From: Sphingobium trunci
Lineage (GTDB): Bacteria > Pseudomonadota > Alphaproteobacteria > Sphingomonadales > Sphingomonadaceae
Direction: 5' to 3'
DNA length: 64,000 nucleotides
Assembly (NCBI RefSeq): GCF_022664535.1
Contig: NZ_JAKUJY010000016.1
Location: forward strand, 1-64,000
Below the pieces are notes generated by a model that was not told where the DNA came from, did not search any database, and was given only the letters and a program-made list of their open reading frames with translations. This document shows, one piece after another, positions 10,785-17,235 of this stretch. A program made the position numbers and the translations under genes. The stretch's first letter is position 1; every line of letters starts with the position of its first letter.

Positions 10785-12611
10785 TCAATCTTCGTCGAAC
10801 AGCCCGGCGAGCTGCTCCACCATCGTCCCGCCGAGCTGCTCGGCATCCATGATGGTCACCGCGCGGCGATAATAGCGCGTGACGTCATGGCCGATGCCGA
10901 TGGCGACGAGCTGCACGGGCGAGCGATTCTCGATCCATTCGATCACCTGCCGCAAATGCCGCTCCAGATAGGTGCCGCTGTTCACCGACAGGGTGCTATC
11001 GTCGACCGGCGCGCCGTCGGAAATCACCATCAGGATGCGGCGCTCCTCATGACGCGCGATCAGCCGGTTGTGCGCCCAGAGCAGCGCCTCGCCGTCGATA
11101 TTTTCCTTCAGCAGCCCCTCGCGCATCATCAGGCCCAGATTCTTGCGTGCCCGACGCCAGGGTTCGTCGGCCTTCTTGTAGATGATGTGCCGCAGGTCGT
11201 TGAGCCGCCCCGGCATGGGCGGCCGTCCCGCCGCCAGCCAGTCCTCGCGGCTCTGCCCGCCCTTCCAGGCGCGGGTGGTGAAGCCCAATATCTCTGTCTT
11301 GACCCCGCACCGCTCCAGCGTGCGCGCCATGATATCGGCGCTGATCGCAGCGATGGAGATCGGCCGCCCGCGCATCGAGCCCGAATTGTCGATCAGCAGC
11401 GTCACGACCGTATCGCGGAACTCGGTGTCCCGCTCGATCTTGTAGGATAGCGAGCGTGTCGGATCGATCACGATCCGCGCCAGCCGCGCCGCGTCCAGCA
11501 GCCCCTCTTCCTGATCGAAGTCCCACGACCGCGACTGCTGCGCCATCAGCCGCCGCTGCAGGCGGTTGGCCAGCTTCGTCACCGCCCCCTGCAGGCTGAC
11601 AAGCTGCTGGTCGAGGAAGCCGCGCAGCCGCAGCAGTTCATCCTCGTCGCACAGATCCTCGGCGGTCACGACCTCGTCATGCAGCAGCGTATAGGCCTTG
11701 TAATCGAAGCCCGGCGGCAGGTCCGACATCGGCCGGTTCGGGCGGACCGGCATCATGCCCTCCTCGCCCATATCGTCCGCGCCTTCCTCGCTGTCGGCAT
11801 CGAACTCGTCGCTATATTCGGTCTCGCCGTCCTCGGTGTCGCCGCCCTGATCCTCGGCGCGGGCTTCGGCGAAGGCGTCGCTGTCGCCGGCCTGGTCCTC
11901 GCCGTTGTCGCCTTCCTCCTGCTGCTGCTCCTCGTCCTCGCCTTCCTCCTCGGCCTCCGAATCGTCGGTTTCAGGCGGCACTTCGGCATCGACGAGCTGG
12001 AGATGCTCCAGCATGGCCGATGTCAGCTTCTGGAAGGCGCGCTGGTCGTCGATCGCCATCGACAGCGCGTCGAGGTCGGCCCCGGCCTTGTCCTCGATCC
12101 ACCGGTCGACCATCGCCAGACCCGGCAGCACGTCGCGGGGCGCGGCCTGCCCGGTCAGCCGCTCGCGCACCTTGAGCGCCAGCGCCGTGGACAGCGGCAC
12201 TTCGTCCGCCGAACGCGCCCGCCGGATCGGATCGGACTTCAGCCGCAGGTCCAGCGCATGGTTGAGGTTCGCCCGAACCCCCTCCATCGCCCGCGACCCG
12301 ATGGCCTCGACCCGCGCCTGCTCGACCGCGTCATAGACCGCCCGCGCCACCGTGTCGGAGGGAGCGGCCGCCCCATGCACCCTGGCATTATGATGGCGCA
12401 GCTTCAGCGCATTGGCGTCGGCAAAGCCGCGCGCCAGCGCCACCTGCTCGGCGGGCAGGTTGCGCCCCGGCGTCGGCACCTTGATCGCCTTGCCCGCCAT
12501 GTGCGGCGTATCGGCGGTGAAGTTCACCTCCACCTCCGCATCGCGCGCGATCGACCGCGCCGCGCCGGACAGCACATCCTTGAAGGCATCAAGGGGCGAA
12601 CGGTCGGCCAT
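10785..12611 (-). CDS. cobT: Cobaltochelatase subunit CobT-like, VWA-domain protein
   Basis: 608 residues: an N-terminal helical domain (about 1-205), a strongly acidic low-complexity segment (about 210-290, [17 protein letters not shown] and similar) and a C-terminal VWA domain with MIDAS residues in [11 protein letters not shown] and [11 protein letters not shown]. This is the CobT architecture, partner of the CobS AAA+ ring in cobalt insertion by the CobNST complex. No cobN is visible in the window. The start overlaps the phosphatase stop by one base (TGATG). Repeat copy A1 abuts the 3' end. It may act as a general AAA+/VWA remodelling pair with CobS. Confidence 0.93.
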
Positions 12612-13390
12612 CAGTCCAGCAGCGCCTCGCGAACGGCGTCCAGCGCGGCGGCGTCCACGCCCAGCCTATCGTTCAGATAGGCCTCCAGACCGCCATGGAC
12701 CTCATCCAGCGTCGCGAACAGGGCATCCAGATATTCCGCCTCCGCCCGCAGCAGCGGCTCCAGCACGTCGGGCCGGGTCAGCCGCGCCCGCGACATCAGC
12801 GTATCGCGCCGCGCCAGCAGCCAGTCCCAATCGGCATGGTCATTGGTCGCCAGATAATCCTCGACGATCGTCTGCCGCGGCACGCCCAGCGCCGCCAGCA
12901 CCAGCGCCGCGCCGACGCCGGTACGGTCCTTGCCCGCCGAACAGTTGATCAGCAACGGCACCCGCCCGTCCGCGATCCGCCCGAACATCGCGCGATAGGA
13001 TTCGGCATGGTCGACCGGGATCGCGCGATACAACTCGACCATGAGCTGGCGCGTTTCTTCCGCCGACCCGCCCTGTTTCAGCACTTCGCCCAGCAGGCCG
13101 CTGCTTTCGCCATAGTCGCGGCAGAAATAGTCGACCTCCGTTCCGTGCCAGAGCGTCGGTTCCGCCGTCCGCTCATTGCCGCGGCGGAAATCGCAGATCG
13201 CCCGGATGCCCAGCGAACGCAGATGATCCGCATCATCCTCGGTCAGCAGCGACATCGTCCCCGAACGATAGAGCATCCCCCGCTTCACGCGGCGCCCGTC
13301 GACGGTCGCATGGCCGCCGAAATCGCGCAGGTTGAAGGCGCTGCCAAGCGGCAGGATACCGCTTTCGGTGCGGGCGAAGGCCTCGCTCAT
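12611..13390 (-). CDS. Tyrosine phosphatase family protein (Y_phosphatase3 type)
   Basis: 259 residues from the ATG at 13390. The N-terminus has [32 protein letters not shown], the typical opening of this family, and the P-loop CSAGKDRTG gives the Cys-x5-Arg catalytic signature (at about residue 145). These enzymes hydrolyse phosphotyrosine, phosphoinositides or other phosphoesters. No signal peptide. The start overlaps the OsmC stop (ATGA, 13387-13390) and the stop overlaps the cobT start, so it is embedded within the cobS-cobT operon, an unusual passenger whose link to CobST is unknown. Confidence 0.88.
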
Positions 13391-13818
13391 GGCCGCTCGC
13401 CCTCCCCGACATAAGGCACGGCGATGGTCTCGATCTGCGTTTCCACCTCGCTCATCAGCTTGTGCACCGGGCATTTGGCGGCCACGGCGATCAGCCTGTC
13501 ATGCTGCTCCCCGGTCAGCGGCCCGGTCAGCGCGATGCGCGTCGTCAGCCTGTAGATGCCCTTGCGCTCCTGGCTCGCGTCGCGAACCACGCCGACATGG
13601 ATGCCCTCGACCGGAATATCGTTGCGCTGCGCATACCAGAGCATGGTCATGGCCTTGCACGCGCCCAGGGCCGAATCATACAGGTCATGCGGGTCCGGCC
13701 CGGCATCATGGCCGTCCGGTGCGGACATGTCCGCGATCAGCTCATGCCCTCTTATGCTGATCCGGTGGGCGGTGCCCCCCTCCGGATCGATCCGCTCGAC
13801 GACGATCATGCCGCTCAC
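13387..13818 (-). CDS. OsmC family protein
   Basis: 143 residues of the OsmC/Ohr fold with two conserved cysteines, in [18 protein letters not shown] and [10 protein letters not shown], the positions expected for peroxiredoxin-type thiol chemistry against organic hydroperoxides. Closer in pattern to the YhfA/OsmC subgroup than to Ohr. The start overlaps the cobS stop by 4 bp (13815-13818). The second Met at 13809 is an alternative start. Inserted between cobS and cobT, so co-expressed with both. Confidence 0.86.
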
Positions 13819-14822
13819 GCCACCCGGTGGGCGACGCTTTCGGGCAGGTCCTTGCCGAACACGCGCTGATAATATTCGGCCACCAGCGCCCGCTCGGCCT
13901 CATCGCATTTGTTGAGGAAGGACAGGCGGAAGGCGAAGCCGATATTCTTGAAGATGAGCGCATTCTGCGCCCAGCTGATCACGGTACGCGGGGACATCAC
14001 GGTCGAGATATCGCCGTTGACGAAGCCCTGGCGGGTCAACTCCGCCACCTTGATCATATTCTCGACCTCCTTGCGGCCGCCCTCATGGTCATATTCGCCC
14101 GACTTGGCCAGCACCACCTGCGCCTCGGTCGCGGCGGGCAGGTAATTGAGCGCGACCACCAGGTTCCAGCGGTCCATCTGGCCCTGGTTGATCTGCTGCG
14201 TGCCATGATAGAGGCCGGTCGTGTCGCCCAGCCCCACGGTGTTGGCGGTCGCGAACAGGCGGAACCAGGGGTTCGGCCGGATGACCCGGTTCTGGTCGAG
14301 CAAGGTCATCTTGCCGTCGGTCTCCAGCACGCGCTGGATCACGAACATCACGTCCGGACGGCCCGCATCATATTCGTCGAACACCAGCGCTACCGGCCGC
14401 TGCAACGCCCAGGGGAGCAGGCCCTCGCGGAATTCCGTGACCTGCTGCCCGTCCTTCAGGACGATGGCGTCGCGCCCGACCAGGTCGATGCGGCTGATAT
14501 GCGCGTCCAGGTTGATGCGGATGCACGGCCAGCGCAGCCGGGCCGCGACCTGCTCGATATGGCTCGACTTGCCGGTGCCGTGATAGCCCTGCACCATCAC
14601 GCGGCGATTATAGGCGAAGCCCGCCAGGATCGCGAGCGTGGTGTCCGGATCGAACACATAGGCGGGATCCAGGTCGGGCACCCGCTCGTCGGCTTCCGAA
14701 AAGGCCGGGATCTTCATGTCGACATCGACACCGAAGACTTCGCGCGCGTCCACTTCACGGTCGGGCGCGGCCAACAGCGTTTCGGCACGGGTATCGGGTT
14801 GGACGTTGGGGATGTCGGTCAT
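13815..14822 (-). CDS. cobS: Cobaltochelatase subunit CobS-like, MoxR-type AAA+ ATPase
   Basis: 335 residues. Walker A is [14 protein letters not shown] (about residues 78-91), Walker [14 protein letters not shown], and the sensor region [19 protein letters not shown]. The start [30 protein letters not shown] is characteristic of CobS. With CobT it forms the ATP-driven ring of aerobic cobaltochelatase. It is followed by osmC, the phosphatase gene and cobT with 1-4 bp overlaps; 88 bp separate it from the Hsp70-like gene upstream. Cytoplasmic. Confidence 0.95.
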
Positions 14823-14910
14823 CTTCGGGTCTCTTCGAGCGGTCTTGTCGGCAATGCCCTAACCGTCGGGAACGGGCATGTCGATAGAGTGAGGCTTTCG
14901 GCCCGGCCGA

Positions 14911-16203
14911 TCAAGCGGCCCATTCGGCCAAATTGGCCTCCTGTCCGATCAGCGCCAGCCCATGGGCGATGGAGGTCAGCTCGCCGCCGCTGGCGATCTG
15001 CTCCGCGCCGAAGCGCCGCTCGAAGATCGCCCGGATCGCCGGGATCAGCGATGTTCCCCCGGTCAGGAACACCCGGTCGATGCTTTGGGGGCCGACCCCC
15101 GCCCTGGCGAGCGCCTTGTCCACCGTCGCCTCGATCCGGGCGATGTCGGGCGCGATCCAGCCCTCGAAATCGCCTCTCGTCACGTCGGCTTCGATGGCAA
15201 GCCCGCCGCCCTCGAAACGGAAGGTCGCGCGCTCGGCCTCGGAAAGCCGCCGTTTCAAAGACCCCACGGCATCGTACAGCTTGTAGCCCAGTTCCTTCTC
15301 GATCACCGTGATCATCCGGCCGATCGCCGCCGGATCATTGGCCGCCTTCTGCAGCCGCGCCAGTTCGTCCATCGTCCGCCGGTTGCGCATCAGCGCCAGC
15401 CGGGACCAGTCGGCGAAATCGGCGAAATAGCTGCGCGGTATCTCCAGTTCCTTGCCGAAGCTCTGGTAGCTTCCGCCCTTGCCCAGCATCGGCAGCACCA
15501 GATGATCGACGATCCGATAGTCGAACCGGTCCCCGGCCAGGCCGATGCCCGCCGACCCCAGCGGCACGCAGCGCCGCGCCGCCCCCGGCGCCTCGACCCG
15601 CACGATGGAAAAGTCGCTGGTACCCCCGCCAAAGTCCGCCACCAATATCGTCGCCGCCCCGGTGAGGCGGCTGGCATAGCTGAACGCCGCGCCCAAAGGT
15701 TCGTAGACATAGTGGATTTCGGTTCCGAAGCCCGCGAACATGGCGTCATAGCGCCGCCGGGCCAGCGCCTCGTCCGGCCGCGCCCCCGCATATTCCACCG
15801 GCCGCCCGACCACGACCCGCTCCGGCCGCCGGTCCAGCCAGCCCCCCGCATGGCTCACCATCTTCCCCAGGAACATCTGCCCCAGCTCCTCGAACCGGAA
15901 GCGCTTCTCGAACACGCTCGCGCTCTCGAAGATCGGGCTGGCCGCCACCGACTTGAAGCTTTGCAGGAAACGGCTGTCCTCCGGAAATTCCAGATATTCC
16001 GCGATCGCCCAGGGGCCTGCCTCATGCGCCATGCCGCCCTTCGCCGCGCCGTCATGCCAGAAGCAGAGCGCCGATCGGAACACCGCCCCGCTCGCCTGTG
16101 CGCCGGAAAATTCCACCAGTTGCGACCCGCTGCCGTCGGCGAGCGCGGCCACGCTGTTGGTCGTGCCGAAATCCAGGCCCAGGGCGCGGGGCGCGGTTGT
16201 CAT
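14911..16203 (-). CDS. Hsp70-family protein, YegD-like
   Basis: 430 residues with actin/Hsp70 ATPase motifs: phosphate 1 LGLDFGTTNSV at the N-terminus, phosphate 2 LVADFGGGTSDFSIVRV at about residue 185, and the adenosine motif VFLTGGTSLIPAI near the end. It is shorter than DnaK (about 640) and lacks a full peptide-binding domain and lid, like E. coli YegD (450). A chaperone-like ATPase of unproven client. Its placement between a J-domain protein (67 bp upstream) and CobS suggests a joint remodelling function. Confidence 0.9.
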   Translation of the reverse strand: MTTAPRALGLDFGTTNSVAALADGSGSQLVEFSGAQASGAVFRSALCFWHDGAAKGGMAHEAGPWAIAEYLEFPEDSRFLQSFKSVAASPIFESASVFEKRFRFEELGQMFLGKMVSHAGGWLDRRPERVVVGRPVEYAGARPDEALARRRYDAMFAGFGTEIHYVYEPLGAAFSYASRLTGAATILVADFGGGTSDFSIVRVEAPGAARRCVPLGSAGIGLAGDRFDYRIVDHLVLPMLGKGGSYQSFGKELEIPRSYFADFADWSRLALMRNRRTMDELARLQKAANDPAAIGRMITVIEKELGYKLYDAVGSLKRRLSEAERATFRFEGGGLAIEADVTRGDFEGWIAPDIARIEATVDKALARAGVGPQSIDRVFLTGGTSLIPAIRAIFERRFGAEQIASGGELTSIAHGLALIGQEANLAEWAA

Positions 16204-16270
16204 AACGGTCTCCGGGAATGAGGGGGGCGGCGCCTATGGCAGCATGATCTCGCCGCCGCAACCCTTCGCA

Positions 16271-16888
16271 TCAGGCGAAGACCGGCGCCTTCCTCAGCAA
16301 CTGATAGGCCTCGATCACGCCCTGCAGGGAGGTTTCATGGCTCCGGTCGCCGCCATTATGGTCGGGGTGATAGCGCCGCAGCAATTCGGTATAGCGCTGC
16401 CGCAGCGCCTTGCGGTCGGCATCGATCGGCAGCCCCATCACGGACAAAGCCTTGCGCTCCTCGCCGGAGACGAACTTCCCGTCCTGCCGCATTTGATTGT
16501 CGGCCCGCGCCTTCGCCATCCTTTCCCTGAACCTGGCGCCGATGGCGTCCAGCGGGTCCTGGAAGTCGGACCATTTGGGCGGCGGGCTGGCGGCGTTGGA
16601 GGAAAAGGCCCGCGTCTCCCGCTCCCATCCGGCATAGGGGCGCTGGGCGGCGGCAATCTCCTCCGGGCTCATGCCGCTGAAGAAATTATAGCCCTGGTTG
16701 AACGCGCGCACATGGTCCAGGCACAACCAGCGCCAGCGCGGGCCTTCCTGATGGTTCGCTCCCCCCTCCAGCGGCGGCGCGCGAAACTCGCCCGGCTCCT
16801 CGCAGCCGGGAACCGCGCAGGGCCGGTCGCTTTCCACACGGCCATGGAAACGGTTGAAACGCCGGGTCGAGAAAGGATCGCTGGCCAA
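16271..16888 (-). CDS. J-domain (DnaJ-like) protein
   Basis: About 205 residues. The N-terminal part has a small Cys/His cluster (PCAVPGCEEPGEFRAP ... CLDHVRAFNQGYNFFSGM); the C-terminus (about 140-205) is a J-domain with ALSVMGLPIDADRKALRQRY, the HPD tripeptide in YHPDHNGGD, and a final helix VIEAYQLL. Putting the J-domain at the C-terminus is typical of this alphaproteobacterial family. I chose the TTG at 16888, which follows AGGA at a 5-bp distance; longer forms would overlap the divergent bolA start. Likely co-chaperone of the Hsp70-like gene next to it. Confidence 0.85.
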   Translation of the reverse strand: MASDPFSTRRFNRFHGRVESDRPCAVPGCEEPGEFRAPPLEGGANHQEGPRWRWLCLDHVRAFNQGYNFFSGMSPEEIAAAQRPYAGWERETRAFSSNAASPPPKWSDFQDPLDAIGARFRERMAKARADNQMRQDGKFVSGEERKALSVMGLPIDADRKALRQRYTELLRRYHPDHNGGDRSHETSLQGVIEAYQLLRKAPVFA

Positions 16889-16932
16889 GATTGTCCTGAT
16901 GAACTTACGGGCAAAAGGCCTATATAGGCGCC

Positions 16933-17235
16933 ATGACCGATGTTGCAAAAGGCCCGCCATCCCATCAGGGACCAATCGCCACCGAAATCGAAGCCCGGCT
17001 GCGCGCCGCCCTTTCCCCCGAACGGCTCGCCGTGACCGACGACAGCGAGATGCATCGCGGCCATGCCGGGCATGACGGATCGGGCGAAAGCCATTTCACC
17101 GTGGAGATCGTGTCGGCCCGCTTCGCCGGCCAGAACCGGGTGGCCCGCCAGCGGCTGGTCAATGCCGCGCTCGCCGACCTGCTGCGCGAAAAGGTCCACG
17201 CCCTCGCCATCAAGGCCCGCGCGCCCGGCGAATAG
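16933..17235 (+). CDS. bolA: BolA family protein
   Basis: 100 residues; core SPERLAVTDDSEMHRGHAGHDGSGESHFTVEIVSARFAGQNRVARQRLVNAALADLL with the conserved His in HRGHAG and the RxxRxR turn before the final helix. BolA proteins bind a [2Fe-2S] cluster together with a monothiol glutaredoxin and influence iron regulation and morphology. Divergent from the J-domain gene, 12 bp before the pirin gene and likely cotranscribed. Confidence 0.92.
   Translation: MTDVAKGPPSHQGPIATEIEARLRAALSPERLAVTDDSEMHRGHAGHDGSGESHFTVEIVSARFAGQNRVARQRLVNAALADLLREKVHALAIKARAPGE

Follow-up and report, generated by a model that had tools for sequence, protein, structure and literature searches.

The cobS-cobT locus of Sphingobium trunci and the retention of the CobST motor in alphaproteobacteria without a CobN match

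AAA+ ATPases of the MoxR type act together with VWA proteins in pairs such as RavA-ViaA, NorQ-NorD and CbbQ-CbbO, which remodel metalloprotein or enzyme clients. CobS and CobT are described as a two-tiered motor in the available text of PMC7689651, and the accessible parts of PMC2667541 and PMC8269236 list cobS and cobT among the genes for scoring B12 synthesis. Here, the cobS-cobT locus of Sphingobium trunci (contig NZ_JAKUJY010000016.1, positions 1 to 64,000; this whole stretch of 64,000 nucleotides is referred to as the window) is compared with those of its relatives. Both genes are annotated as B12 enzymes, yet nearly all genomes of the order Sphingomonadales match them and very few match the corrin gene cobH. 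The explanation judged best, with a probability of roughly 0.6, regards CobST as a core alphaproteobacterial remodelling motor of the AAA+/VWA type, borrowed by CobN and serving another client as well. A second, B12-independent role of CobST in relatives lacking CobN is in itself very probable.

The order survey comprised 196 genomes, 173 of which form a high-quality subset (at least 90% complete, at most 5% contaminated). CobS was matched in 193 genomes (162 over the curated cut-off) and CobT also in 193 (183 over the cut-off); the same three genomes lack both. In contrast, a CobN/BchH-type match was found in 39 genomes and CobN exceeded its cut-off in 7, while 157 genomes gave no CobN/BchH homologue at E ≤ 0.001. 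Among the genomes with CobS, 154 are without any CobN/BchH match and 186 without an over-cut-off CobN. cobH (PF02570) was matched in 6 genomes, all among the 7 with an over-cut-off CobN, and in none of the remaining 190. Among the genomes that give no CobN match, several consist of one contig only (e.g. G044, G050, G056 and G077). These counts agree with the suggestion, made in the original prediction from the sequence of the window, that CobST is more than a cobaltochelatase. The available text of PMC8123684 regards cobNST annotations as possibly nonspecific in some bacteria that lack most corrin genes.

In the class survey (240 genomes, with any CobN-type match counted as CobN), CobS was matched in 188 genomes and CobN in 93, of which 78 exceed the cut-off. 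Both are present in 91 genomes, CobS alone in 97, CobN alone in 2 and neither in 50. Among 41 named genomes, CobN lies over its cut-off in 16, is represented by a weaker match only in 4 and gives no match in 21, for example in Sphingobium xenophagum NBRC 107872. In a draw of 200 genomes from the phylum, CobT was matched in 53, of which 50 belong to the class, and the three matches in other classes are all below the cut-off. The control genome of Caulobacter vibrioides, which we take to be the same species as C. crescentus, has matches to both CobS and CobT but does not appear among the controls with a CobN match.

To examine the motor itself, 85 cobS loci of the order and class were used, namely the window and 84 fetched loci, in stretches of up to 20 kb. 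In the locus counts, "CobN-less" means without a match over the curated cut-off; some such genomes have sub-cut-off, mostly BchH-like matches, and one CobN-less locus (L043) stems from a genome with a long sub-cut-off CobN match. The window pair consists of a Walker A/B ATPase and a VWA protein with a MIDAS (metal ion-dependent adhesion site) motif. Where no over-cut-off CobN is encoded in the genome, none of the 65 CobS sequences lacks the Walker A core G-x-HGTGKS or the motif FDEYDAG, and none of the 63 CobT sequences lacks DNSGSM or GFTT; the third VWA motif, SDGAPVDD, shows a single change among these 63. Judged from its motifs, the CobST motor is intact in CobN-less genomes. Retention, motif integrity and the missing CobN matches are direct observations; motor activity without CobN is what we infer. 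A CobST tree was built from 83 of the 85 loci (20 of them CobN-positive), L010 and L054 being left out because no cobT had been fetched for them. The CobN label changes 16 times on this tree, compared with a mean of 18.1 and a minimum of 13 for shuffled labels; the count is descriptive, the loci having been picked by hand (mostly one per genus of the order, plus CobN-less and CobN-positive genomes of the class). A number this close to the shuffled one indicates that CobN comes and goes on a CobST that is kept.

The neighborhood of cobS is conserved as well. BolA is encoded in 81 of the 85 loci, a J-domain protein in 76 and cobT in 67, and the most common layout is bolA facing away, followed by the J gene, cobS and cobT. 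The conserved unit consists of the divergent bolA, the cysteine/histidine (Cys/His) J-domain protein, cobS and cobT. J is present in 57 of 65 CobN-less and 19 of 20 CobN-positive loci and BolA in 63 of 65 and 18 of 20, respectively. The J protein next to CobS, already named as an alphaproteobacterial feature in the original prediction, is thus widespread; bolA had been overlooked there. A second set comprised 80 named loci, each with up to 6 kb of flanking sequence; BolA was found in 52 of them, J in 51 and CobT in 45. One locus without J (L020, genome G110) has a strong J match about 24 kb from cobS. No cobT lies within the stretch in 18 of the 85 cobS loci, one of them at a contig end, and CobS and CobT are both kept though unlinked. 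Both genes are retained, at chromosomal positions far from each other, in G143, G019, G050 and further genomes of that family.

In the window, the genes of the block and the adjacent bolA are arranged as follows.

10785..12611, minus strand: cobT, VWA (MIDAS) subunit of the CobST motor (TIGR01651 868.5 bits, cut-off 759.1; PF06213, PF11775; motif DNSGSM)
12611..13474, minus strand: protein tyrosine phosphatase of the Y_phosphatase3 type, a lineage-local insertion (PF13350, E 6.5e-66; likely start 13390)
13387..13818, minus strand: OsmC-like protein, a lineage-local insertion (PF02566, E 3.4e-12)
13815..14822, minus strand: cobS, AAA+ ATPase of the CobST motor (TIGR01650 588.1 bits, cut-off 558.6; Walker A GYHGTGKS)
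14911..16203, minus strand: YegD-like short Hsp70 (PF00012; NF008673 142 bits, cut-off 331)
16271..16888, minus strand: J-domain protein with a C-terminal J domain including HPD and an N-terminal Cys/His domain (PF00226 at residues 150-200)
16933-17235, plus strand: bolA, running divergently from J, a member of the conserved unit (PF01722, E 3e-29)

All six minus-strand open reading frames (ORFs) match, in family scans, the families that had been assigned to them at these positions. CobS of the window is 92-97% identical to CobS of records named Sphingobium, and Protein Data Bank (PDB) chains named CobS and CobT match the window proteins at E 2.8e-159 and 5.6e-207. The 1-4 bp overlaps described for the OsmC/phosphatase insertion were confirmed, with 4 bp between cobS and osmC and 1 bp between the phosphatase gene and cobT. 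The osmC/phosphatase overlap is 4 bp (ATGA) only with the internal ATG start at 13390, which overlaps the osmC stop; the longer phosphatase ORF listed runs from 13474. The J and Hsp70 genes are separated by 67 bp, and Hsp70 and cobS by 88 bp. The start of the J gene is uncertain (TTG at 16888 or further downstream), its conserved part beginning at 16831. For the Hsp70, described as YegD-like in the original prediction, the match to PF00012 and the YegD type of the nearest NCBIfam model (NF008673) stand, and the equivalog cut-off of that model is not reached. A pirin gene follows bolA. The motif CTATATA recurs in the bolA-J gap (window positions 16888-16932 and fetched loci), being present in 14 of 67 gaps, where it probably represents back-to-back -10 elements of overlapping divergent promoters. 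No iron or redox box was recognised in these gaps, and a regulatory motif was rejected, the enriched words being start-codon contexts and CTATATA. Anti-phage defence was also rejected, as PADLOC gave two marginal matches only.

The J protein combines a J domain that exceeds the PF00226 cut-off, with HPD in at least 95% of 76 sequences, and an N-terminal region with C-x4-C followed by C-x2-H, in which C5, C10, C37 and H40 are invariant among 19 sequences. This Cys/His motif is a probable zinc site. An AlphaFold model of the protein reached a mean pLDDT (predicted local distance difference test) of 81.6 and a pTM (predicted template modelling score) of 0.45. In a Foldseek search against the PDB, J domains were the best matches among the 50 of 97 matches listed (best E 0.014, none at E ≤ 0.001), and the N-terminal part had no clear coverage among the same 50 of 97. 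A profile of the N-terminal domain matched 205 of the 240 class genomes, one of them weakly. It occurs together with CobS in 178 genomes and without it in 27, CobS alone is found in 10 and neither in 25 (Fisher p 4e-12, relatedness being ignored). S. trunci has a second match to the family of this N-terminal domain, unlinked to cobST, on another contig (G000:C83:79501-79668). Of 23 genomes tested, seven including this one carry such an additional match; another 13 have just one, mostly a weaker one far from cobS, and 3 have none. As far as such comparisons go, the J protein is associated with CobST, not bound to it.

In the proposed mechanism, CobS as an AAA+ ring and CobT as its VWA partner would make up a single remodelling motor, driven by ATP and put to two or more uses. 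The J protein would bring an Hsp70 and a client by means of its Cys/His-rich N-terminal domain, the MIDAS site of CobT would dock on the client, and hydrolysis by CobS would remodel it. The position of the Hsp70 gene next to the J gene in this genus gives some reason to expect that the J protein acts together with an Hsp70. The gene linkage is observed, and from here on we infer: a partnership of the J protein with CobST is given even odds. BolA proteins are linked to iron-sulphur (Fe-S) trafficking. In Caulobacter, cobT (CCNA_01367) was the sole copper-stress fitness gene to strongly affect fitness in transposon sequencing with ethylenediaminetetraacetic acid (EDTA), the direction of the effect being unstated in the available text (PMC12004947). 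The divergent bolA and this EDTA phenotype together point to the maturation or repair of a metal-centre protein, perhaps one with iron or Fe-S. That the second client of CobST is a metalloprotein is a tentative proposal. A further reading, conceivable but doubtful, sees in BolA, the Cys/His J protein, CobS and CobT an ancestral alphaproteobacterial machine for remodelling metal-centre proteins, with J and Hsp70 handing over to the AAA+/VWA ring, and regards the aerobic cobaltochelatase of the class as a secondary use in which CobN borrows the motor. Were that so, calling B12 producers in genomes and metagenomes on the strength of cobS and cobT would often go wrong. In searches of one open-access library, no description was found of an alphaproteobacterial CobST kept without CobN together with J and BolA, and PMC8224329 does not mention cobT or cobS.

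Several points weigh against a conserved CobST motor with a client besides CobN and with J and BolA as its companions. In the class survey, 91 of the 93 genomes with CobN also have CobS, as a plain cobaltochelatase predicts, and from the sub-cut-off matches a related large subunit is present in some "CobN-less" genomes. The mean root-to-tip distance in the CobST tree is slightly longer for CobN-less tips, at 0.85 (standard deviation 0.20) compared with 0.76 (0.16) for CobN-positive ones. The 27 genomes with J and no CobS, and the 10 with the reverse, indicate a separate task for the J protein; in several genomes, an unlinked J paralogue seems to be the only copy retained. Genes for aroB, shikimate kinase, a CNNM protein, a phytase-like esterase and rpmB recur near the locus, and the J/BolA linkage may be ancient gene order. 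The main texts of four alphaproteobacterial functional-genomics studies (PMC10746277, PMC12817903, PMC10725011, PMC5929573) do not mention cobS or cobT, and that of PMC5513736 mentions neither these nor cobN. Finally, species counts were taken as they stand, with relatedness ignored.

The recurring housekeeping genes are the starting point for an alternative that accepts the second role of CobST and regards BolA and the J protein as bystanders of an old gene order. The occurrence of J and CobS without each other fits it, as does the separation of CobS and CobT themselves in several genera. When all neighbours were treated alike, however, in a clustering of non-overlapping ORFs from 100 loci, including 84 around cobS, J was present in 71 loci and BolA in 43, with the next gene group in 28. 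Together with the association of J and CobS across the class, this makes the bystander explanation rather unlikely.

A second alternative retains a metal chelatase: CobST would drive another, unrecognised large chelatase subunit and thereby still insert metal into a tetrapyrrole. The available text of PMC7689651 describes a class I chelatase with CobST as its motor, and frameshifted chlD motor subunits without a large subunit, their function unclear, are described for two other bacteria in the accessible part of PMC9227772. Only sub-cut-off CobN-type matches were found in 32 genomes of the order; most of these show the two-piece pattern of BchH and are probably BchH. In favour of this alternative, four of the 32 (G027, G096, G107 and G113) have single long matches to the CobN model of 474-510 bits, below the cut-off and with a pattern unlike the two-piece BchH-like one. 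Against this explanation stand the 157 of 196 order genomes without any homologue of CobN or BchH, and no gene group of CobN size recurs beside cobST in most of the 100 loci. The most common long group lacking a family name has a median length of 654 aa and is found in 22 of the 100 loci; its representative has no Pfam match and it may be a shadow ORF. An unrecognised chelatase subunit is therefore considered improbable.

The simplest alternative is that CobST serves CobN only and that CobN-less cases are relics on their way out or incomplete genomes. The genome of S. trunci itself fits it well. The original prediction had argued from missing cobN and other corrin genes; cobN is indeed not found within the window, and a search of the full genome, as it had proposed, located both CobN and genes of the aerobic corrin-ring pathway on contig C13. 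CobN reaches 1542.5 bits with TIGR02257 (cut-off 822), and the C13 cluster comprises cobN, cobW, a Ni/Co transporter gene, bluB, cobG, cobH, cobI, cobJ, cobL, cobK, cobM, cobB and cobF. Of the models searched, those for cobF, cobB, cobM, cobI, cobH, cobK, cobJ, cobL, bluB and cobW exceed a cut-off in this genome, and cobG lies just under its own (211.6 vs 234.8). A protein with a CbiG C-terminal domain in the cluster is probably cobE. A gene trio of the PrkA-YhbH-SpoVR type adjoins the cluster (L002:102-3262). The absence of CobN from the genome is thus rejected. Profile searches gave a single CobS match and a single CobT match, so the window pair is the sole candidate motor of its type for CobN. 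Since it is the only TIGR01650/TIGR01651 pair found in the genome, the window CobST very probably drives CobN for cobalt insertion in aerobic B12 synthesis in this Sphingobium, and cobaltochelatase suffices to explain CobST in this organism.

The argument from missing cobN, which fails for S. trunci, holds for most of the relatives examined, and it is here that exclusive service to CobN loses ground. The rarity of CobN without CobS (2 of 93 class genomes) is what such service predicts. In the high-quality subset of the order, however, CobS and CobT are each matched in 172 of 173 genomes and any CobN-type match is found in 35. The core motifs do not vary among the CobN-less loci examined, cobH is without a match in 190 of 196 genomes, and several of the genomes lacking a CobN match are single contigs. 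An exclusive role in cobaltochelatase across these relatives is very improbable.

The remaining genes of the block are local to the lineage. Hsp70, OsmC and phosphatase were found in 3, 2 and 1 of the 85 cobS loci and in 5, 3 and 2 of the 80 named loci, respectively; a further phosphatase match in L023 is 7 kb away on the other strand. OsmC and phosphatase were rejected as conserved parts on these counts, and the survey of linkage proposed in the original prediction showed that none of the three genes is conserved at the locus beyond the genus. Within Sphingobium, a high-scoring Hsp70 relative is present in 44 of 61 genomes, not in all cases placed at this locus, and the remaining 17 give weak Hsp70 matches of the kind produced by DnaK. 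Sphingobium quisquiliarum (L104) has CobN and a J-CobS-CobT locus without the three extra genes, while in S. xenophagum the Hsp70 is present and CobN gives no match, which indicates that the extra genes are local and independent of CobN status. Half of the genes listed in the original prediction are incidental. A redox- and phosphatase-assisted repair machine of J, Hsp70, CobS, OsmC, phosphatase and CobT, as originally put forward, is hardly credible in view of these low counts and of the S. quisquiliarum locus, despite the tight spacing with 1-4 bp overlaps in this genome and the Hsp70 relative in 44 of 61 genus genomes, which adjoins the J gene here and suggests a J-Hsp70 pair.

The reading of CobST as a remodelling motor with a client besides CobN can be set beside several known systems. 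In phages, a CobT-like VWA region was found in 40 and a CobS-like region in 460 of 50,697 records. In phages of hosts as diverse as Roseobacter, Salmonella, Rhizobium and Klebsiella, the CobS-like ATPase lies within about 2 kb of a CobT-like VWA region (e.g. OR671924.1, NC_018843.1, MN988505.1, PQ492289.1); where annotated, the two are labelled as B12 or porphyrin genes. According to the available texts of PMC11288001, PMC9599517 and PMC7029224, cobS and cobT occur in SAR11 phages and in phages infecting a Roseobacter lineage without two B12 synthesis genes, and the first text calls the function of phage cobS uncertain. Unlike the window genes, the phage ones are not in the bacterial locus, and identity is at most 34.8% among the 50 matches listed. 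A second role of CobST would provide a frame for them, and for the metal-stress effect of Caulobacter cobT.

Cobaltochelatase CobNST of the Pseudomonas denitrificans type is resembled in that CobS and CobT of the window exceed the equivalog cut-offs and CobN is encoded in the same genome. It differs in that cobST and cobN lie on separate contigs here and that most relatives are without an over-cut-off CobN and without cobH. Magnesium chelatase BchI/BchD/BchH has the same three-part plan with homologous subunits (PMC7689651, available text); CobST, in contrast, is present with or without BchH-like sub-cut-off matches. From the MoxR-type pairs, CobS and CobT are set apart as families of their own, with J and BolA beside them and no client gene recognised. 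CobS is the only NCBIfam model over its cut-off, which does not support membership in the RavA, NorQ or CbbQ families, and no RavA match was seen. CobS matches PDB chains of CbbQ and NorQ weakly (E 1.6e-7 to 4.7e-6), and, as in the MoxR-type systems, an AAA+ ATPase and a VWA protein are kept as a pair.

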